A DNA stretch of 64,000 bases from Geovibrio ferrireducens (GCF_026226615.1 NZ_JAJAPB010000013.1:1-64000); one strand, 5' to 3'; counted from the first letter of the stretch, positions 7,431 through 33,733 are shown. The notes: a model not told the origin generated them from the letters alone. Numbers and translations: made by a program.

Positions 7431-9113
7431 ATGCGTTCCCCTCTCTGCCCTGAAAAGGGCTTTTCGTTGATTGAGCTGGTTTTTGTCCTTGTCATAATCG
7501 GTTTTCTCGCCTCGTTCGGCTACGGAATGATGAAAAATGCCAGAAACTATTCTGCTAAAAGGACTACGGATGCGGCTCTCAGAGAGGTCCTTATGAAAGC
7601 ATCGGCAGTGATCGCATCGTCAGGAAAAATCCCGCCGGCATCTTATTTTAACGGCTTAACGGACGGCTACGGCAGAAGCATTCTGACCGCTGCGGCAGAC
7701 GAGGCTGATCTGTGTTCAGGCTTCGGCGGAATAAATATTTCCATATGCCTCAATGCGGACTGCTCCGAGAAAGAATCAGGCGGAACGGCTGCGGTTTTTG
7801 CCGCCAGTGCCGGAGAGGACGGCAGGTTTACCGCAAATACGGAGAACGGTTCAGTCACAATCTACCCCCGGTCAGTGCAGCATGATGATGTAATCCTTTG
7901 GACAGGCTTCGCTGAGGCTATGGCACAGGCCGGATGCGGAAACGGCTCACTTAAAATTGTCACTCCCGCGCTCCCTCCGGTGAACGGAGGTAGCCTTTAC
8001 ACAGCAGAAATACAGTCAGTGCCCCCTGCGGAAAAGTGGTGTGCGGAATCAGACGGTGAAACAGCCGCAATCCTGAATATTTCAGCAGGGTGTGCAGATA
8101 ATGCAAGTTTCATCAGCGGCACATCCATGCTTATCTCAGCCAGTACCCCTTCATTCACCGATTCTTCCATCCGCAGAATAACAGTTTATGCCGAACGGGG
8201 CGGAACAGTGTCAACCGCCTCATATGCTGTGCCTTTTTATCCGGATGATACGGCAGGGGGGACAAAACCCGGCATAAGGCTGGATTCGGATGATATATAC
8301 CGGAGGGATCAGGCTGGTGCGGAGACGGACGCAATAGAGCTGATAACAGATGAAAAGGGCGGCGTAGACGGCTTCGCCCTGGCAGGAGGCTCCTCATCCG
8401 GCTCTGTGTGCCTGTGGATCAATAAGGTATTCGATTATAAAACTACTTTCAGAATGTATTACGAAGCGGAAACACACTATAAAGACAATGATGTACAAAG
8501 CCTCGGCTCACCATTCGGCGGTTACGGTCTTGCGGTTTTCCCATCCGAGTATGAGACAAAGCAGTTGAAATGCGGCTTGCCCGGCACTACCGGGCTAGGT
8601 TACGGAGGGCTGAGCTTCGGAGGTGCGGGCTTCATTCTGGAAACAGACCTTTACCCTGACAGAAACTTCGACTTCAATCTTTACCCTTCCCCTAACCATC
8701 TCGCTTTTGTGCCGTGTATTTACCCCACCGGAGGCTCAAAAGTCTGCCTCGGCGCCCATCTGCACACTGCCCTTCCCTCATGCCCCTCCGGCGGCTGCGC
8801 TGAGCCTGCTTCCTCATCCCCGAACTGGTTTGAGGATGAAAAAAAGCACCCGATGCGCCTTGAGCTTCACTCCGGCTACTCCGACGGCACATGCTCGCAA
8901 AAATCCTCCGGCGGCGGCTACATACTTGCCAAGGCATGGACAGACTGCTCATCCTGCTCGGATCTCTCCTTCAATTACACAGGGAGCAGCCCCGATGCGG
9001 AGTACTGCCTAGAATCGGAAGATAAAATGAACAGCATCCACATAGGCTTCACCTTCGGCAGCACGGCAGGCTCGGAAATCACTTTCGATAAAATTCTCTT
9101 CTCTGCGGACTGA
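7431..9113 (+). CDS. Large prepilin-like protein with possible lectin-like C-terminal region
   Basis: At 560 residues this is far longer than a normal pseudopilin (about 150-300). The N-terminus has the prepilin cleavage motif (EKG then FSLIELVFVLVIIGF, Glu+5). A middle section resembles the Ig-like region of its divergent neighbour. Residues about 285-560 are Cys-rich and Gly-rich, with FGGYGLAVFPSEYE and LSFGGAGFILETD, a layout reminiscent of concanavalin-like lectin folds; that reading is tentative. GAGG precedes the ATG at 7431. It is probably a pilus- or pseudopilus-tip protein presenting an extracellular binding domain. Confidence 0.7.
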   Translation: MRSPLCPEKGFSLIELVFVLVIIGFLASFGYGMMKNARNYSAKRTTDAALREVLMKASAVIASSGKIPPASYFNGLTDGYGRSILTAAADEADLCSGFGGINISICLNADCSEKESGGTAAVFAASAGEDGRFTANTENGSVTIYPRSVQHDDVILWTGFAEAMAQAGCGNGSLKIVTPALPPVNGGSLYTAEIQSVPPAEKWCAESDGETAAILNISAGCADNASFISGTSMLISASTPSFTDSSIRRITVYAERGGTVSTASYAVPFYPDDTAGGTKPGIRLDSDDIYRRDQAGAETDAIELITDEKGGVDGFALAGGSSSGSVCLWINKVFDYKTTFRMYYEAETHYKDNDVQSLGSPFGGYGLAVFPSEYETKQLKCGLPGTTGLGYGGLSFGGAGFILETDLYPDRNFDFNLYPSPNHLAFVPCIYPTGGSKVCLGAHLHTALPSCPSGGCAEPASSSPNWFEDEKKHPMRLELHSGYSDGTCSQKSSGGGYILAKAWTDCSSCSDLSFNYTGSSPDAEYCLESEDKMNSIHIGFTFGSTAGSEITFDKILFSAD

Positions 9114-12336: not shown

Positions 12337-13536
12337 TTATGCGCTCTTCTTGTGCCCTTCAAGGTTGGGCATGATGGGGAACATCTTCACCAGCACCATG
12401 TAGCCGAGGATTTCAAAAGCCACGAGACCGAGGGTTATGAAAAACTCAGGCAGTGAGGGGAAGTATGACCATCCCTTATCTGGGTTGAAGCCGATAATAT
12501 AAACACTGAACCTGTACCATGAACCGCCGACGCAGAGCATGACAGCGGAAACAAATACCCATCTGGGCGACATTCTGAAATGCTTCCATGTGAGCATGTA
12601 CGCACCGCCCGCGATAAGCAGGGTTTCAGCGAGGAACATCTTCGAGTAGTAGTCCCCTGAGAAAGCCGTTGAAAGGTGTCCTCTGTAGTAAAGGTCAGCA
12701 AAGCGGATTATCAGCCATGCAGCAGTGAGGTAGGGAACAACTTTCGCGATTATCCTTACTTCCTTCTCAAAGGGTCTGCCGAACGCCACTGAAGACAGGG
12801 TGGATTCGAAAATGATCACTGAGTAGCCTATGTACATTGCGTTTATGAGGAAAAGAACAGGAAGGAAACCTGTCTGCCATATGGGGTTCAGCTTGGAACC
12901 GGCGATAATCATCATAGAGCCCAGTGAGGACTGGTGCATTGTAGGCAGCGTGATACCCAGAACGATGAAGAAGATAAGCACTTTATCAAGTTTCGGGTAA
13001 ATTTTTCTGGCATATTCCTTGAGTTTCGGGAAACGGGGATTTGTGGAGTGCACAAACCTTTCCAGAATCGCAGGAAGAAGCTCAATGGCAAGAACCACGT
13101 TATATGCCATAACGCAGACAGCGACCTCAAACATTACCGAGTTTACCTGCCAGCGTGAAGGCATGAAGAAGCTGTAAGCGTTCCAGTACCTTCCAAGGTC
13201 CACCATAACGGAGAAGCCCGCAAGAGCGTAACCGAAGAGTGATGTAACGATCGCGGAACGGATAAGGGGGTGGTATTTCCAGCCGTTCATGATGTAAATC
13301 ACGATAGCAAGGGCATAACCGCCGCAGGCAAGAGCCGTACCTGTTGCAACGTCATATGCAATCCAGATACCCCAGGGGAAACCGTCCGAAAGGTTACTCA
13401 CCGCGCCGATACCCATTACATAACGGAGACCGATGCAGTAGAAGCCGATTACCGTGAAGGTAAGAAGCACCCAGAAAGACGGGGTGAGAATCTTCTCACG
13501 GTGTAGTGCCATATATTCATTACTTTTCGGAACCAT
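12337..13536 (-). CDS. hybB: Hydrogenase membrane subunit HybB (NrfD family)
   Basis: The 399-residue polytopic membrane protein belongs to the NrfD/HybB family, which passes electrons between quinone and a periplasmic iron-sulfur partner without haem. About ten hydrophobic segments are visible, with FPWGIWIAYDVATGTALACGGYA and the acidic-turn VDLGRYWN typical of HybB. The ATG at 13536 follows GAGGA and overlaps hybA by 17 bases; an ATG 21 bases upstream is less well placed. It lies between hybA and hybC as in E. coli hydrogenase 2. Confidence 0.92.
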   Translation of the reverse strand: MVPKSNEYMALHREKILTPSFWVLLTFTVIGFYCIGLRYVMGIGAVSNLSDGFPWGIWIAYDVATGTALACGGYALAIVIYIMNGWKYHPLIRSAIVTSLFGYALAGFSVMVDLGRYWNAYSFFMPSRWQVNSVMFEVAVCVMAYNVVLAIELLPAILERFVHSTNPRFPKLKEYARKIYPKLDKVLIFFIVLGITLPTMHQSSLGSMMIIAGSKLNPIWQTGFLPVLFLINAMYIGYSVIIFESTLSSVAFGRPFEKEVRIIAKVVPYLTAAWLIIRFADLYYRGHLSTAFSGDYYSKMFLAETLLIAGGAYMLTWKHFRMSPRWVFVSAVMLCVGGSWYRFSVYIIGFNPDKGWSYFPSLPEFFITLGLVAFEILGYMVLVKMFPIMPNLEGHKKSA

Positions 13537-26415: not shown

Positions 26416-26901
26416 TCAGTTAGAAAACTTGTAGCCGGAAGGCTTTATCTCACCGATGTATGTCTGAACGCCATACCCGGCTTCAAGCCAGCCCACTATC
26501 CCGCCTTTCATATTTACTGCGTTTTTGTAGCCCAGTTCATTCAGAAGCTGAGTCGCAAAAGCGCCTCTTGCGCCTGTTTTGCAGTAGACCACAATTTTGT
26601 CATCAGCATCAAGCTGACCGGCTGCTACCCACTCAAGAAGCCCTCTGGGAATTTTTTTGAGTGTTCCAGCATCGATAACCATTCCCTGTTCATCGGCCTC
26701 TCTTATGTCCAGCATGATAAACCGCCCTTCTTTTGAGGCCATTTCAGCCACCTCAGCAGGGGAAACTTCCTTGATTGCTTTTCTGGCTTCCGCCAGTTTC
26801 GCATCACGGATTTTGGCAAGATTTTCCGGCGCAGCGGCATTCGCGCTGAAGCTCAGAAGCATTGCTGTGAGAGCTCCTGCGATAATCAGAACCTTTTTCA
26901 T
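26416..26901 (-). CDS. Exported rhodanese-like sulfurtransferase
   Basis: The 161-residue protein has a Sec signal peptide (MKKVLIIAGALTAMLLSFSANA) and a single rhodanese domain with the active-site loop VYCKTGARGAFAT, Cys being the persulfide carrier. It should act in the periplasm, moving sulfane sulfur from thiosulfate or polysulfide. GGAGGTG precedes the ATG at 26901. Its promoter shares a 17-base palindromic box with the psr operon across the ArsR-type gene, so it probably serves the same sulfur pathway, much as periplasmic Sud-type rhodaneses deliver polysulfide to polysulfide reductase. Confidence 0.9.
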   Translation of the reverse strand: MKKVLIIAGALTAMLLSFSANAAAPENLAKIRDAKLAEARKAIKEVSPAEVAEMASKEGRFIMLDIREADEQGMVIDAGTLKKIPRGLLEWVAAGQLDADDKIVVYCKTGARGAFATQLLNELGYKNAVNMKGGIVGWLEAGYGVQTYIGEIKPSGYKFSN

Positions 26902-26927
26902 GATACACCTCCAAATAAACATACGTC

Positions 26928-26957
26928 AGTATACCGAACATACCGGAAAAGCGTCAA
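26928..26957 (-). promoter_or_regulatory. Rhodanese promoter
   Basis: On the minus strand TTGACG (26957-26952) and TATACT (26933-26928) are 18 bases apart. The shared palindromic box lies 8 bases upstream of the -35, the position expected of an activator. Confidence 0.6.
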
Positions 26958-26965
26958 GGCGATGT

Positions 26966-26982
26966 GTGATTTATTTGTCACT
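26966..26982. promoter_or_regulatory. Shared 17-bp operator, rhodanese copy
   Basis: GTGATTTATTTGTCACT occurs here and again, identical, at 27628-27644 before psrA. Its core is the dyad GTGA-N8-TCAC. The dyad centre is about 52 bases upstream of the predicted transcription start. Confidence 0.7.
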
Positions 26983-27204
26983 CATTTTCGTATTAAACTG
27001 ATACAACAGATAAAATAAAGCGAAGACAAAAGAGTAAATTCAGATAGGTTTTTTTTGATTATTTGTATCGGAAAACGCATATTGAAGCTGGATTAGGCTG
27101 ATAAGCAGAGGTGATAATGATTCCGGGTATTCTTTCACTACATGAATAGCGGCTGCGCTATAAGAAAAACAAATGCCTGAAACAGCAAAATACCTAAATA
27201 ATCA

Positions 27205-27519
27205 CTAAGCCCTTGAGTTTTCAATCAGCTTGTCGTGCTCGATGCACCCAAGCAAACTGCTCTTGATGTAACCGGTCTGAAGAACGAAAAGTGTTTTTCT
27301 TCCTTCCTTGTAGGCTTTCAGCAAGCCGGCATCCTTCATCAGATTAACGTGCTTTGTAATGTTGGTTCTTTCGCAGTCGAAGGCTTCTTCGATCTCATAG
27401 CCGTAGCGGGGTCTTTCGCAGACCATCTTTGCAATGCGCAGACGCACAGGGTTTGCAAGCGCCTTGAACAGCCCCAGTACTTCGTCTAATTCTTTTTCGT
27501 TAAGGTCTCGTAATGCCAT
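27205..27519 (-). CDS. ArsR-family regulator with possible persulfide-sensing cysteines
   Basis: The 104-residue winged-helix protein matches the ArsR/SmtB fold: LFKALANPVRLRIAKMV in helix 2-3, CERTNITKHVNLMKDAGLL as recognition helix, and YKEGRKTLFVL as wing. The arsenic-binding ELCVCDL motif is absent. Instead Cys34 lies in helix 2 and Cys92 in helix 5, the places used by the sulfide/persulfide sensors SqrR and BigR; Cys49 is an extra. Start at 27519 is chosen because upstream residues are not family-like. It sits between the rhodanese and the divergent psr operon, which it probably regulates. Confidence 0.85.
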   Translation of the reverse strand: MALRDLNEKELDEVLGLFKALANPVRLRIAKMVCERPRYGYEIEEAFDCERTNITKHVNLMKDAGLLKAYKEGRKTLFVLQTGYIKSSLLGCIEHDKLIENSRA

Positions 27520-27523
27520 GTAA

Positions 27524-27549
27524 TCTCTATATATTATATATATTAGAGA
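27524..27549. promoter_or_regulatory. Inverted repeat just upstream of the ArsR-type gene
   Basis: TCTCTA (27524-27529) and TAGAGA (27544-27549) flank 14 A/T bases, placed 5-30 bases upstream of the ATG. It could be an autoregulatory operator or simply the promoter core. Confidence 0.4.
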
Positions 27550-27627
27550 GTCAATCACTTTGTTATAAATAGAAATATAGGAATAACTGATTGAGACATT
27601 CAATTTTACTTATCAAACGGGATAATA

Positions 27628-27644
27628 GTGATTTATTTGTCACT
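27628..27644. promoter_or_regulatory. Shared 17-bp operator, psr copy
   Basis: GTGATTTATTTGTCACT is identical to the copy before the rhodanese gene. It lies 5 bases upstream of the psr -35 element, centre about 50 bases before the predicted transcript start. Confidence 0.7.
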
Positions 27645-27649
27645 TTTTA

Positions 27650-27678
27650 TTGACACTTTTTACTCACGGAACTAATCT
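27650..27678 (+). promoter_or_regulatory. Promoter of the psr operon
   Basis: TTGACA (27650-27655) and TAATCT (27673-27678) are 17 bases apart, a near-consensus sigma-70 promoter about 70 bases before the psrA start. Confidence 0.65.
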
Positions 27679-27746
27679 ACCTTTAATGTTTATTTACAGT
27701 TCAAATATGCGCTAATCCGCATATAAACTTCAAAACGAGGGAATCC

Positions 27747-29948
27747 ATGACAAAATGCAGAATCTCCCGGAGACGTTTTATTCAGGGAACGGCCTCAGTG
27801 GGCGCAGCATTGGCGTCCATGTCATCTTTCCGTCTGCTTACCGGCAGCTCATCAGCCGTTGCAGAACCCCAGCAGGGAGTGACATATGCCCAGAACTGGT
27901 GCGAAATGTGCTTCTGGAAGTGCGGTCTCACCGCAAAAGTGGTCAACGGAAAAGTGAGAAAACTTGAAGGACAGCCGGACTGCCCCAGCAACTTCGGCAA
28001 ACTTTGTGCAAAAGGGAACGCAGGCGTGTTCCAGCTTTATGACCCCGACAGGCTGAAAACACCTCTTATAAGAGACGGTGAAAGAGGCTCAGGCAAATTC
28101 AGAAAGGCAACATGGGAAGAAGCAATCACATATGTTGCGCAGAAAACCAACGAGCTTAAGGAGAAATACGGCCCCGAAACTTTCAGCCTTTTCTGCCACG
28201 GCTCAGGACAGGACCCGTTCATCCAGATGATGGAAATAATGGGTTCACCCAACATATGCGTACCCTCATACTCACAGTGTACCGGAAGCCGTGACATCGG
28301 CTGGGCTCTCTCCTTCGGAAAGCCTGTGGGCGGCAAGGAACCTGTGGACTCCCAGAACTCAAAATGCATCATGCTTCTGGGCAGGAACATTGCCGAGGCT
28401 CTCCACGTGGGCGAAATGCAGGACTTCGTGGAAGGCGTGGCAAAGGGCGCACACGTTATCTATGTTGACCCCCGCTTCACAAAAACAGCGGCGAAGGCCA
28501 ACCAGTACATGATGATAAAACCCGGAACAGACTCCGCTCTGCTCCTCGGCATGATTAACTACATAATAGAAAAAGAGATCTACAGTAAAGACTTTGTGGA
28601 AAACTACACCTACGGCTTTGACCAGTTCAAGGAGCACGTGGCTGGCTACACTGTTGAGTGGGCTTCAGAGATAACTGAAATCCCGCAGGAAGAGATCATA
28701 AAGGCTGCGGAAAAGCTCTGCAAGGCAGCTCCGCGCTGTTACGTGCATCCGGGCAGAAGGCTCACCAGATACGGCAACGACACTCAGTTCACCAGAATTG
28801 TGGCATGTCTTAACATGCTTCTGGGCAACTGGGAGGTCAGAGGCGGTCTGTACCGTACAATAGGCTTCAAGTACGATGCGCCGGCAATGATCGAGTATGA
28901 CAAATCCCATGCGGAAAGGGCAGACGGCTCAGGCAGTGAGGAATTTCCCCTTGGGCCCAAGAACCTCGGCTTTTCCAACGGAACAATCAAGGCTATAGCC
29001 GAACAGTCGTCCCCGCTCAAAGGGATGTTTATATACGGCTGCAACCCGCTGCACCACCACGGGAATACAGACACTGTCAGAAAAGCTATAGAAAACACTG
29101 AACTGATAGTAACATGCGAAATCTACATGACGGACACCGCATGGTACTCCGACGTTATTCTTCCCGAATCCACCTACCTTGAGCGCACTGAGCCTGTGAT
29201 CACCACAGGACGCAGAGCAGGTTTTGTGCAGTACAGGGAAAAAGCCGTTGATCCAGTTTTTGAAACTCTCGGAAGCTGGGATATGGTAAACAGACTCCTT
29301 GAGGCCATGGGCTATGAAAACAGGTTCATGGACATAAGCGAGTACAACAGGCTGGCATTCGAATCCCTCGGCGTTGACGAGGAATATATGAAGAAAAACG
29401 GCGTATTCATAGGCAACGAAAGCTCCCCCTACCCTGTGGAGGATTACGAAGAGGAACCCTCTTTCAGAACCCCCTCAGGCAAGGCCGAGTTTTACAGCAA
29501 CCTTGCCGAGCATTTTTCATATCCTCCCATGCCCTCATACGAGGAAAACCCCGTTCCGGCGGAAGGCGAGTTCAGGCTGCTTTTCGGCAGAATAAGCTTC
29601 CACACCCACGCACGCACGCAGAACAACGCATGGCTCCTTGCCCTGCACAAGTCCGAAGTGCCCCTGTGGATTCACACCGAAAGGGCTAAGGCGCTTGGAA
29701 TAAAAGACGGAATGCAGGTACGCCTTGTTAAGGAAGGATTCAAAAGCAACCCCTGTACAGCGAGGGTTGTGGACTACATCCATCCTCAGGCGGTATTCCT
29801 CCCCTACGGCTTCGGTCATGAATCAAAAGGGCTCACAAGGATAGTCGGCAAGGGAGCCAGAACATCGGACTTCACCTCCGACCTCACAGACCCCATAAGC
29901 GGCGCCGCAGGCTTTCACAACGGCTTCGTGAAAATTGAGATCGCTTAG
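27747..29948 (+). CDS. psrA: Polysulfide/thiosulfate reductase catalytic subunit (PsrA/PhsA)
   Basis: The 733-residue molybdopterin enzyme has a Tat signal (ISRRRFIQGTASVGAA), so it works in the periplasm. A [4Fe-4S] motif follows: CEMCFWKCGLTAKV with the fourth Cys in GKLCAKG. Molybdopterin-binding segments follow, with SYSQCTGS offering a candidate Cys ligand to Mo, as in Psr/Phs enzymes. Length and order match PsrA/PhsA. It would reduce polysulfide, sulfur or thiosulfate to sulfide, or possibly run in reverse. It heads psrABC and a bc-type cytochrome module. GAGGGAA precedes the ATG. Substrate cannot be fixed from sequence. Confidence 0.9.
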   Translation: MTKCRISRRRFIQGTASVGAALASMSSFRLLTGSSSAVAEPQQGVTYAQNWCEMCFWKCGLTAKVVNGKVRKLEGQPDCPSNFGKLCAKGNAGVFQLYDPDRLKTPLIRDGERGSGKFRKATWEEAITYVAQKTNELKEKYGPETFSLFCHGSGQDPFIQMMEIMGSPNICVPSYSQCTGSRDIGWALSFGKPVGGKEPVDSQNSKCIMLLGRNIAEALHVGEMQDFVEGVAKGAHVIYVDPRFTKTAAKANQYMMIKPGTDSALLLGMINYIIEKEIYSKDFVENYTYGFDQFKEHVAGYTVEWASEITEIPQEEIIKAAEKLCKAAPRCYVHPGRRLTRYGNDTQFTRIVACLNMLLGNWEVRGGLYRTIGFKYDAPAMIEYDKSHAERADGSGSEEFPLGPKNLGFSNGTIKAIAEQSSPLKGMFIYGCNPLHHHGNTDTVRKAIENTELIVTCEIYMTDTAWYSDVILPESTYLERTEPVITTGRRAGFVQYREKAVDPVFETLGSWDMVNRLLEAMGYENRFMDISEYNRLAFESLGVDEEYMKKNGVFIGNESSPYPVEDYEEEPSFRTPSGKAEFYSNLAEHFSYPPMPSYEENPVPAEGEFRLLFGRISFHTHARTQNNAWLLALHKSEVPLWIHTERAKALGIKDGMQVRLVKEGFKSNPCTARVVDYIHPQAVFLPYGFGHESKGLTRIVGKGARTSDFTSDLTDPISGAAGFHNGFVKIEIA

Positions 29949-29961
29949 GGAGGAATCTGAG

Positions 29962-30540
29962 ATGAGCACAGCAGATAAAACAAAAAAATTCGCAATGGCA
30001 TACATAGTGGACAGATGCGTGGACTGCAAAGCATGCATGGTGGCATGCAAGGCGGAATGGCAGGTTCCGGAAAACGATTTCCGCACGCATATAGACACAG
30101 GCATAGCCCCGGCAGTGACAGAAAGGCTCAGCATGCACTTTCTTCCCCATCAGTGCAACCACTGCGACCATGCCCCCTGTGTGACGGTCTGCCCCACAAA
30201 GGCAAGCCACAAAAGAGAGGACGGAGTTGTGGATATTGACAACCGCAAGTGCGTCGGCTGCCGCTACTGCATCCCCTCCTGCCCCTACAACGCAAGGTTC
30301 TTCAATAACGAACTTGGCGTTGCGGACAAGTGCACCTTCTGTCTGCCGAGAATATACGACGGCCTCATGCCCGCATGCGTAACAACATGCCCCGGCAGGG
30401 CAAGGGTTTTCGGCGATGTGAACGATCCCGAAAGCGAGATCTCAAAGGCGCTTAAAAACGCCGCAGACAACAGGTACAGAGTCTGGACCCTCCGCAAGGA
30501 TCTGGGCACTGAGCCTAACATTTATTACATCCAGAAGTAG
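29962..30540 (+). CDS. psrB: Polysulfide/thiosulfate reductase iron-sulfur subunit (PsrB/PhsB)
   Basis: The 192-residue protein contains four ferredoxin-like Cys groups (CVDCKACMVACK, CNHCDHAPCVTVCP, CVGCRYCIPSCP, CTFCLPR...CVTTCP), giving four [4Fe-4S] clusters that wire PsrA to the membrane subunit. No signal peptide is present, so it should be co-exported with PsrA by Tat. The ATG at 29962 follows GGAGGAATCTGAG, 13 bases after psrA. Confidence 0.93.
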   Translation: MSTADKTKKFAMAYIVDRCVDCKACMVACKAEWQVPENDFRTHIDTGIAPAVTERLSMHFLPHQCNHCDHAPCVTVCPTKASHKREDGVVDIDNRKCVGCRYCIPSCPYNARFFNNELGVADKCTFCLPRIYDGLMPACVTTCPGRARVFGDVNDPESEISKALKNAADNRYRVWTLRKDLGTEPNIYYIQK

Positions 30541-30549
30541 GAGGACAAA

Positions 30550-31485
30550 ATGGAATTTCAGACAGGCTTCCATTGGTACATAGCGGTTTATCTGTTCCTC
30601 GCGGGTGTGGGTGCGGGCTCCATAGTTGTCGCCTCCCTCGCGGATATGTACGACAGACAGAAATATATATCATTCATAAAAGCGGCAAGCGTGATAGGCA
30701 TGCCCCTTGTTTCCATAGGTATATTCTTCCTTTACATCGACCTCGGTCAGGGAATGTACAAGCCGTGGCTCCTTGCGCTGCTGTTTGTAAACCCAACATC
30801 TGCGATCATGTGGGGTACGCTTATACTTACTATCTTCACAATACTTTCGCTGATCTACGGTGCTTATAACCTCGGCATACTCGACTGGTTCATCAAAAAA
30901 GCGGGATTCCTGAAAATATTCAGATCCCTCGCCGCAAGCGGCTTCATGAACTGGGCGCTGATCATCACAGGCATACTCACCGCGGGCTACACGGCGGTTC
31001 TCCTCGGCGTGCTTAAGGCAATCCCCTTCTGGCACCAGACAGCCCTGCCCATACTCTTCATCATATCCGCCTCATCCACGGGAATTTCAGGTGCGATGGT
31101 GGTGAAGGAGCTCTTCTTCAAGGAGGAGGCTCATCTGGCGAAAATAGAAACCACTCACTTCTACCTGATAATGCTTGAAATCCTGCTGCTCATAGGCATG
31201 ATGCTCATAGCTCTTCAGGGTGTGCCTGAAATGAGGTTTTCAGCCCTTGCGCTCCTCACCGGAGAATTCGCGGTTGAGTTCTGGGTGTTCCTTGTGCTTC
31301 TTGGGCTTGTGGTTCCGGCTTTTGTCTTTGCCTTTGTTGAGGCGGGCAAACTCCACATCAGCGGCGGCAAGCTTGTTTTCTTTGAGCTGCTTGTACTCGC
31401 CGGCGGTTACTTTCTGCGTCATCTCATACTCCACGCAGGTGTTTACACACAGAAATTTACCGACTATATTATGATTCATTACTGA
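30550..31485 (+). CDS. psrC: NrfD/PsrC-family membrane subunit
   Basis: The 311-residue polytopic protein (about eight or nine hydrophobic segments) belongs to the NrfD/PsrC family of quinone-reactive anchors. FHWYIAVYLFLAGVGAGS at the start and VNPTSAIMWGTLIL are typical of PsrC. It exchanges electrons between menaquinone and PsrB. GGAGG precedes the ATG, 9 bases after psrB. Confidence 0.92.
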   Translation: MEFQTGFHWYIAVYLFLAGVGAGSIVVASLADMYDRQKYISFIKAASVIGMPLVSIGIFFLYIDLGQGMYKPWLLALLFVNPTSAIMWGTLILTIFTILSLIYGAYNLGILDWFIKKAGFLKIFRSLAASGFMNWALIITGILTAGYTAVLLGVLKAIPFWHQTALPILFIISASSTGISGAMVVKELFFKEEAHLAKIETTHFYLIMLEILLLIGMMLIALQGVPEMRFSALALLTGEFAVEFWVFLVLLGLVVPAFVFAFVEAGKLHISGGKLVFFELLVLAGGYFLRHLILHAGVYTQKFTDYIMIHY

Positions 31486-31548: not shown

Positions 31549-31965
31549 ATGACAGAGCAAAAAAGCATCTCCAGAAGAGGATTTCTGGGCAGGCTTGCGG
31601 CACTGGCCGCTTCCGCCTTTTCCCTCTGGTTTATTTACAGATTCCTCACCCCTGCGAGTTCAGGCGGCGAAATACTGGTTCAGGCTCAGGAAGCCGACAT
31701 ACCCGAAGGGGGAGCGGTTATCTTTCCCGATAAAAATATAGCCGTGATGCGGATGGACGGCGCTGTGAGCGCAATGTCACTGGTATGCACCCATCTGGGC
31801 TGCACAATAGCCCTCGACGGCGACAGGTTCGCCTGCCCATGCCACGGAAGCATATTCGCCCTTGACGGAACAGTGATAAAAGGCCCGGCTGAACGCAGAC
31901 TTGACACATACAGAACAGAAACCGCAGACGGCATGATAACCGTATTCAGACAGGTGAACGCGTGA
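31549..31965 (+). CDS. Rieske iron-sulfur protein
   Basis: The 138-residue protein has a Tat-like twin-arginine signal/anchor (SISRRGFLGRLAALAASAFS) and a Rieske [2Fe-2S] domain with both ligand boxes: CTHLGC and CPCHGS. It would be the high-potential electron acceptor of a cytochrome bc-type quinol oxidase module. It lies 63 bases downstream of psrC and overlaps the cytochrome b gene (GTGA). Confidence 0.93.
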   Translation: MTEQKSISRRGFLGRLAALAASAFSLWFIYRFLTPASSGGEILVQAQEADIPEGGAVIFPDKNIAVMRMDGAVSAMSLVCTHLGCTIALDGDRFACPCHGSIFALDGTVIKGPAERRLDTYRTETADGMITVFRQVNA

Positions 31966-32987
31966 TAAAGCGCTATCTTGTTCATCTATATCCCAAAACA
32001 TTCAGCAAAGCGGCAGTAAACGGAACTCTCTTTATGGGCGGGCTGATAACCGCTCTCTTTCTCAGCCTGTGCGTAACGGGAATTCTTCTTCTCTTCTATT
32101 ACTCACCGGAAAGCTCCGCCGCATATTTATCAATCATCCACCTTGAGGAGAAGGTCTTCGGCGGGCGCTTCATCCGCGCAATGCATCTGTGGAGCTCACA
32201 CATACTGCTCATTGCCCTTGCCCTGCACATGGTGCGCACCATATTCACCGGAACTTACGCTGTCAGGCCTTCCAACTGGAAGCTGGGCTATATCCTCTTC
32301 GGTCTTCTGGTTTTTGAGGCCTACACAGGGGTTCTTCTCCCTATGGATCAGCTTTCATACTGGGCCACCAAAACAGGGATGGAGCTTGTAAACGTCCTCC
32401 CCTTCGGTGATTTCATCCGCAGACTGCTCACGCCGGACGATGTAGGCGGCAGGCTCTCACTTATAAGGTTTTTCGCCATGCACATAGCCCTCATCCCGCT
32501 TCTGTGCGTGTTTCTCATATCCGCCCATCTTTACAATGTCCGCAGGGACGGCGGCCTGCACCCGAAGGATGACAGAACAAAAACAAAGAGCGAGCCCTAT
32601 CTCTTTAACCTCACATGGGTTATTGCGGCTGCGGCAGTGGCGCTCCCCGCTGTGCTGGCAGTTGTTTCCGGCGCTCCCCTTGAGGAACCGGCAGATCCAG
32701 CGCTCCCCCCGAACCCTGCAAAAAGCGCATGGTTCCTGCTGTGGATTCAGGAGATAGTAAGCTGGAAGGCATGGCTGTTCAACCCTTTTGCGGTGCTGTT
32801 TATCCTGTATTTCTTTCTGCCTGATTTCCGCAGGAAATATCAGCCGGAAACAGCCGTCTGGTTTGCGAAAAAAGATGCTCCCGTCTGGGGGATCACGCTG
32901 TTTCTGTGTTCGGCTGTTCTTGTGCTCACGGCAGTTGCAATGTTTTTCAGAGGTGAGAATTGGTCGCTCGTGCCCTTTTACTTCTGA
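31962..32987 (+). CDS. Cytochrome b subunit of a bc-type complex
   Basis: The 341-residue membrane protein is a cytochrome b of bc complexes. Haem-ligand His pairs are visible in AMHLWSSHILLIALALHMV and AMHIALIPLLCVFLISAHLY. A second half follows with NPAKSAWFLLWIQE at the place of the usual quinol-site PEWY segment, which is therefore not canonical. GTG start at 31962 overlaps the Rieske stop. With the Rieske protein and the tetrahaem cytochrome it should form a quinol:cytochrome c oxidoreductase in the inner membrane. Confidence 0.88.
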   Translation: MIKRYLVHLYPKTFSKAAVNGTLFMGGLITALFLSLCVTGILLLFYYSPESSAAYLSIIHLEEKVFGGRFIRAMHLWSSHILLIALALHMVRTIFTGTYAVRPSNWKLGYILFGLLVFEAYTGVLLPMDQLSYWATKTGMELVNVLPFGDFIRRLLTPDDVGGRLSLIRFFAMHIALIPLLCVFLISAHLYNVRRDGGLHPKDDRTKTKSEPYLFNLTWVIAAAAVALPAVLAVVSGAPLEEPADPALPPNPAKSAWFLLWIQEIVSWKAWLFNPFAVLFILYFFLPDFRRKYQPETAVWFAKKDAPVWGITLFLCSAVLVLTAVAMFFRGENWSLVPFYF

Positions 32988-33733
32988 TTTTTCTCAGCCT
33001 TCCTGCTTTTCCCGCCTTTGCGTCCATGTGCGTGAAATGCCACAAGCCCCATTATGAGAAAACAGGCTCATGCACTGTCTGCCACAGGGGAAACAGTGAA
33101 ACAAGCCGGAAAAACATAGCCCACAGCGGGCTGATAACAAAGAAATACGCTGACTTCATCATAAACCGTCAGGCTGTCTCCGGCGGCGGAAAAACCATAG
33201 AAAACGCCCATTGCAGAAGGTGTCACGTCACAGGGGGCAAGGGTAATGACATAGCCCCTGACCTTGATACCGAAAGCAGACGCAAAACCGCAGAAACACT
33301 GAAAGACAAGCTGATGAAACCAACGGACTACATGCCTGATTTCCGTATGAATGACAAGACTGCCGAAGATTCCGTCAGGTATATCCTTAATGCGGGGGGA
33401 AGCGCAAAAAAGGTTTCGGGAACAGCCCCTTATGTTGTCTTCATAACTCAGGGCAAAAAGAGCGCTTTTGATGGAAAATGCGGCGGATGCCACAGGCTGC
33501 TTACCCGCAAAAAAGGCGGAACAGGGCATGGGAACACCGCACCGAACCTTTCCGGACTGTTCAGCGAATATTACCCCGCTGATACCGTAAAGATGGAAGG
33601 CGGAAGATGGAACAGGGAAATACTGATTAAATGGATTAAAAATCCCAGAAAAATAAAGCCGGATTCACTCATGCCGCCGATCCTCCTCACTCCTGAGGAG
33701 GAAAAAAGAATAACAGCCGAATTTGAAAGCTGA
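32960..33733 (+). CDS. Tetrahaem cytochrome c
   Basis: The 257-residue protein has a signal peptide (LLLLIFLSLPAFPAFA) and four haem-binding motifs: CVKCH, CTVCH, CRRCH and CGGCH. The last third resembles a monohaem cytochrome c domain with Met in SLMPP as a possible sixth ligand. The start is TTG at 32960, supported by AGAGGTG four bases upstream and by overlap with the cytochrome b gene, which implies coupling. It likely takes electrons from the Rieske protein. It ends 9 bases before the stop of the convergent MFS gene. Confidence 0.88.
   Translation: MVARALLLLIFLSLPAFPAFASMCVKCHKPHYEKTGSCTVCHRGNSETSRKNIAHSGLITKKYADFIINRQAVSGGGKTIENAHCRRCHVTGGKGNDIAPDLDTESRRKTAETLKDKLMKPTDYMPDFRMNDKTAEDSVRYILNAGGSAKKVSGTAPYVVFITQGKKSAFDGKCGGCHRLLTRKKGGTGHGNTAPNLSGLFSEYYPADTVKMEGGRWNREILIKWIKNPRKIKPDSLMPPILLTPEEEKRITAEFES

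Follow-up and report, generated by a model that had tools for sequence, protein, structure and literature searches.

Which regulator controls the sulfur genes on either side of an arsR gene in Geovibrio ferrireducens, and which signal does it read? The locus lies in a 64,000-nt stretch (NZ_JAJAPB010000013.1:1-64000, called the window here) of a genome of 2.97 Mb in 46 contigs, and plain coordinates are positions in the window. The arsR gene encodes an ArsR-type regulator and stands between two copies of a short box. It reads toward a gene for a Sud-like exported rhodanese, and psrABC, the genes of a predicted polysulfide/thiosulfate reductase, run in the opposite direction (Table 1). The original prediction had placed the ArsR-type gene between the boxes, as found here, and had proposed that its product, or another regulator binding the box, controls both sulfur genes. 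Comparison with relatives indicates that a conserved local switch is very probably real at this locus.

The shared element was first described as a 17-mer, GTGATTTATTTGTCACT. It occurs exactly at 26966-26982 and 27628-27644, and the genome-wide search returned only these two exact copies, both at the arsR locus. When three mismatches were allowed, five further places were found in the genome, which is about the level of the reversed control. Comparison with relatives showed that the constrained unit is the palindrome GTGA-N8-TCAC and not the whole 17-mer. The exact 17-mer was rejected as the conserved unit because the box cores vary among relatives, and in the sister species G019 the core differs even between its own two boxes (GTGATATTTTTATCAC versus GTGATTAAATTGTCAC). 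The two identical copies were thus confirmed, and the 17-bp extent was replaced by the shorter palindrome. The bare pattern GTGAN8TCAC has 38 occurrences in the genome versus 22 for the reversed control, and the pattern with an A/T-rich core, GTGANW6NTCAC, has two, which are box 1 and box 2. The scan of 48 genomes for a box plus a -35 element gave one further match in this genome (C12:22108, G/C-rich core). The next-best matches of a weight-matrix scan of the 64-kb window, at 13484 and 49684, are both within open reading frames.

GTGA...TCAC resembles CRP half sites, which have a spacing of N6, and a different regulator, for example of the CRP/FNR type, could bind the box with arsR as a bystander. 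This reading was rejected as highly improbable on the N8 spacing, the genome-wide rarity of the box and its linkage to the regulator. Across three gene arrangements the boxes stay with the arsR clade, and five of the six A/T-core matches read elsewhere are within genes (the sixth, L147, is intergenic). Because the A/T-core boxes are limited to two copies in the genome, a global regulator of this type is unlikely; many copies at non-sulfur genes, which would point to such a protein, were looked for genome-wide and were not found.

The box was then compared with the distribution of the regulator in the 48 genomes of the class, among which seven (own genome included) have a close ortholog and others have more distant relatives. 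Six of these seven carry the ortholog between two boxes, namely three species of the own genus (g1), two of genus g2 and one of g3. The boxes face the rhodanese gene and psrABC in g2 and, with the exception of G018, in g1. In G015 both neighbouring targets are missing and both boxes are missing too; the candidate box of this genome is within an open reading frame. G003 and G005, from a different family, each carry two boxes ahead of an operon that encodes two exported rhodaneses and a relative of the regulator (36 and 32% identity), and G021 has two boxes ahead of arsR (30%) and a pair of rhodanese genes. Boxed rhodanese/arsR operons are present in two further genera. By a Poisson estimate, two boxes would arise by chance around the ortholog with a probability of 1e-4 to 2.6e-4 per genome, and with 4e-6 for G003 and 2e-5 for G021; the own genome defined the pattern and is not to be counted, and species of the same genus are not independent. 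The paralogous ArsR genes elsewhere in the phylum have no box nearby except for L163, where the cores of the two matches are richer in G/C and the matches appear incidental. The recognition helix is conserved along with the box in the alignment. These comparisons indicate that the box and the regulator evolve in concert. Their co-occurrence, their joint loss and the geometry conserved across genera support the predicted control of both sulfur genes by one regulator through the box, and the ArsR protein as this regulator. The protein is very likely to bind the boxes directly.

Two target genes have changed in relatives. In G018 (L127 9820-10423) the rhodanese gene is gone and its box is still there. 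In G020 (L130 ~8000-8520) the rhodanese is intact but for one in-frame TAG near the end of the signal peptide, and the other box no longer faces psr.

As had been predicted, the boxes lie just upstream of the -35 element of both genes, with a gap of 6-8 bp to TTGACG (26957-26952, minus strand) for the rhodanese gene and TTGACA (27650-27655, plus strand) for psrA. The same geometry is found in all 12 target-facing boxes of g1, g2, g3 and g5, where a TTGRC hexamer begins 6-8 bp past the box and the box centre is near -50 (start sites estimated from the hexamers). G003 and G005 have a second box 57-59 bp downstream, near the transcription start, and both boxes of G021 directly follow TTGACT-N18-TATAAT. 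Repression is favoured because of these boxes after TATAAT and near the start, and the ArsR protein likely represses both targets. The site of E. coli ArsR takes in the -35 (PMC9134189). The upstream placement had been taken as a hint of an activator. Because the window has the -50 box only, an activator (or anti-silencer) acting from -50 in this genus keeps a small probability. The spacing between box and -35 is fixed, with the box invariably just upstream, the psrA -10 is weak, and there are precedents in the family: ArsR proteins of the HlyU type act as activators, and at katG the binding site of YgaV lies upstream of that of the polymerase (PMC9774250). However, the -35 hexamers are near consensus, as in promoters that need no activator, and the repressor geometry of the relatives weakens the hint, although the placement itself holds.

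The regulator belongs to the ArsR/SmtB superfamily: Pfam HTH_20 (28.2 bits) and HTH_5 (23.3 bits) both score above their cut-offs, and the fold matches. Cys34 is in helix 2 (24-35) and Cys92 in helix 5 (87-103) of the AlphaFold2 model, and Cys49 is a third cysteine. Helix 5 of the monomer has low confidence (predicted local distance difference test below 50), and the Cys34-Cys92 distance from the model is unusable. The classical arsenic motif ELCVCDL is absent in the regulator, as had been noted; its helix 3 is GYEIEEAF, and CVC is present in ArsR paralogs of the same genome.

The description of the two cysteines as SqrR/BigR-like did not hold, because they are in the right helices and the wrong columns. 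In the alignment with E. coli YgaV, the helix-2 cysteine of YgaV falls on Lys31, so that Cys34 is at +3, one helical turn off, and the helix-5 sensor cysteine comes 5-6 residues after Cys92. The regulator scores 26 bits with the NCBIfam BigR equivalog, versus a cut-off of 155, and falls outside that family. In the tree, 13 clade members are on one side of a branch with support 97/90, and YgaV and HlyU are in the other group (99/93). Thus the protein does not belong by sequence to the SqrR/BigR family, and its sensing mode may still resemble that of SqrR.

Cys92 is a cysteine in 12 of the 13 clade members (G010 has Ala), and no equivalent was found in the other ArsR paralogs examined from the Deferribacterota. 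Cys34 is present in all seven close orthologs and confined to them; the other clade members have Trp, Tyr or Ser. Five proteins (those of G003, G005 and G021, the second protein of G017 and that of G008) have a second helix-5 cysteine instead of Cys34 (CIPRVIGC and similar), and eight clade members have Cys49. A Cys34-Cys92 intraprotomer tetrasulfide exactly as in SqrR/BigR, which was the earlier form of the prediction, would fit the two shared helices and the presence of both cysteines in all seven orthologs. It is unlikely, since the columns differ (Cys34 at +3, Cys92 at -5/-6 relative to YgaV), the clade is separate from YgaV/HlyU, and the Cys34 position is not a cysteine elsewhere in the clade. 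The second clade member of G017 (L158 6017-7479) is in an operon with two rhodaneses and without GTGA-N8-TCAC; it may read another site, because its recognition helix differs (DRTTISRH).

The box-led genes themselves are informative on the signal. The rhodanese is a short exported protein, and its best matches among solved structures are 6mxv and the Wolinella sulfide dehydrogenase Sud (1qxn), with an active-site loop of the same CKTxAR type. Among solved molybdopterin enzymes, PsrA matches the Thermus polysulfide/thiosulfate reductase 2vpw with 505 bits, and the next best with 193 bits. With its B and C subunits, this PsrA-type catalytic subunit belongs to the PsrABC/PhsABC group; its substrate may be polysulfide, thiosulfate or another acceptor, among which sequence does not discriminate. 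Downstream of psrABC (31549-33733) are a Rieske protein, an ExtP/ExtQ-like cytochrome b, which scores below the cut-off of the ExtP and ExtQ models, and a cytochrome c recognised by the ExtS model (264.8 bits, cut-off 100). In G017 the psr operon continues into ExtM and ExtN relatives. By gene content, psrABC and the Ext-type genes constitute a predicted psr-ext hybrid respiratory cluster.

Sud functions in Wolinella as the partner of Psr. Sulfane sulfur is favoured as the signal because the boxes lead to exported rhodaneses in each arrangement, and to PsrABC as well in two genera, and also because Wolinella pairs Sud with Psr; the chances that it is the signal are evenly balanced. The N8 spacing of the box is the same as in the SqrR site ATTC-N8-GAAT (PMC9774250), a point in favour of the mechanism proposed below. 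With the same regulator and boxes, the signal could instead be a thiophilic metalloid (selenite/tellurite products, arsenite) or a metal ion at Cys34/Cys49/Cys92, which is rather unlikely. The models matched behind psrABC, ExtS above and ExtP/ExtQ below the cut-off, are named for selenite/tellurite reduction, and extHIJKLMNOPQS of Geobacter includes a rhodanese-like protein, with ExtI implicated in selenite/tellurite reduction (PMC5877670). The clade arsR adjoins ExtM/ExtN genes in G008 and G010, and in G021 (L157 5210-7926) a probable arsenite carrier (SBF family) and an ArsC-like protein adjoin the rhodanese operon. However, the arsenic-like genes of G021 are convergent and not behind the boxes, which lead to the exported rhodaneses and PsrABC; ELCVCDL is absent, and the molybdopterin enzyme is nearest to Psr and not to arsenate reductase.

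In the proposed mechanism, each recognition helix (ERTNITKH) of an ArsR dimer would read one GTGA half of GTGA-N8-TCAC, and the dimer would occupy box 1 at the rhodanese gene and box 2 at psrABC. Bound at about -50 beside a near-consensus -35, it would hinder RNA polymerase. Sulfane sulfur (polysulfide or persulfide) would react with the regulator thiols, a plausible step in which the clade-conserved Cys92 would be the core residue and Cys34 (or Cys49) the partner in this lineage. The modified protein would leave the DNA, and the polysulfide carrier and polysulfide reductase would be made together.

Several points weigh against this account. The cysteine columns are unlike those of known sulfane-sulfur sensors, and Cys34 is missing in the rhodanese-only lineages G003, G005 and G021. 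Binding and repression are predictions from sequence, and the arrangement that suits a repressor is taken from relatives. Genes of the Ext type, linked to selenite/tellurite, lie next to the psr operon, and elemental sulfur is often not reduced by Deferribacteres that have psrABC (PMC6896113). As a whole, the account of binding, repression, thiol release and joint induction falls just short of an even chance. A wider proposal is more tentative: sulfane-sulfur sensing in this Deferribacterota ArsR clade might have evolved independently of SqrR/BigR, around Cys92 and a partner that can be exchanged between lineages (Cys34 in those with psr, a second cysteine of helix 5 in the rhodanese-only ones), and this would be the first case in which an ArsR-type protein controls a respiratory polysulfide reductase together with its sulfur carrier.

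Table 1. Positions of the boxes, genes and predicted promoters at the arsR locus
Feature	Position	Strand	Basis
Box 1, GTGATTTATTTGTCAC, GTGA-N8-TCAC	26966..26981	no strand	identical to box 2; kept in relatives
Box 2, GTGATTTATTTGTCAC, between arsR and psrA	27628..27643	no strand	identical to box 1; kept in relatives
ArsR-type regulator, 104 aa, Cys34/Cys49/Cys92, recognition helix ERTNITKH	27205..27519	-	Pfam HTH_20 and HTH_5, orthologs, alignment, model
Sud-like exported rhodanese, predicted polysulfide-sulfur carrier, target 1	26416..26901	-	Pfam Rhodanese, 50 bits
psrA, molybdopterin polysulfide/thiosulfate reductase catalytic subunit, target 2	27747..29948	+	2vpw, 505 bits
psrB, four-cluster iron-sulfur subunit	29962..30540	+	Pfam Fer4_11
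psrC, NrfD-type membrane subunit	30550..31485	+	Pfam NrfD, 126 bits
Rhodanese promoter, predicted, TTGACG-N18-TATACT	26928..26957	-	sequence reading; best-scoring hexamer pair, 8 bp past box 1
psrA promoter, predicted, TTGACA-N17-TAATCT, weak -10	27650..27678	+	sequence reading; 6 bp past box 2
arsR promoter, predicted, TTGACT-N17-TATAGA	27526..27554	-	sequence reading; both hexamers kept in three species of the genus

Two further observations concern the leaders. The sequence ATGTTTATTT, which is conserved in the genus, is common to both target leaders (26913-26922, minus strand; 27686-27695, plus strand), close to where transcription is expected to start; as a second, degenerate operator it was rejected, having no box score in the weight matrix. 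The arsR -10, TATAGA, is kept in three species (window 27519-27554), and the arsR transcript is probably leaderless because the hexamer ends only 7 nt before the ATG.

If the clade senses sulfane sulfur, detection of the respiratory substrate would be tied directly to its carrier and reductase, and a two-cysteine ArsR sensor would have arisen more than once, with different geometry. The SqrR cysteine columns alone would then be an unsafe guide for the prediction of persulfide sensors. The arsR clade also offers an operator motif, and its natural cysteine arrangements can be compared directly.

SqrR, BigR, YgaV, SoxR and sHdrR share with the regulator the ArsR winged helix, cysteines in helices 2 and 5, a palindrome with N8 and the linkage to sulfur genes, and YgaV likewise adjoins a rhodanese gene, ygaP. 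Unlike SqrR, BigR and YgaV, the regulator is linked to GTGA-N8-TCAC and not ATTC-N8-GAAT, has other cysteine columns, falls in a separate clade and has a respiratory reductase as predicted target; published SqrR/BigR-type sensors share both cysteines (PMC12423496). CzrA, SmtB and CmtR have a similar fold (template modelling score ~0.77 for CzrA), and CzrA is among the nearest sequence matches in the PDB, but the regulator is without CVC in helix 3 and no metal-efflux gene is behind the boxes. In the open-access literature, the only regulator found to be reported for a polysulfide reductase operon is PsrR of Wolinella succinogenes (PMC6682613), which likewise controls psrABC but belongs to the unrelated AraC family. 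The Sud and Psr module of Wolinella resembles the locus in that a Sud-like rhodanese (1qxn) adjoins PsrABC, and differs from it in the predicted shared control through an ArsR-linked box and in the Ext-like cytochromes that follow. These cytochromes, ExtS-like and ExtP/ExtQ-like, recall the extHIJKLMNOPQS cluster of Geobacter, for which a LysR-type regulator is reported (PMC6148476), whereas here they follow psrABC and an ArsR-type regulator.

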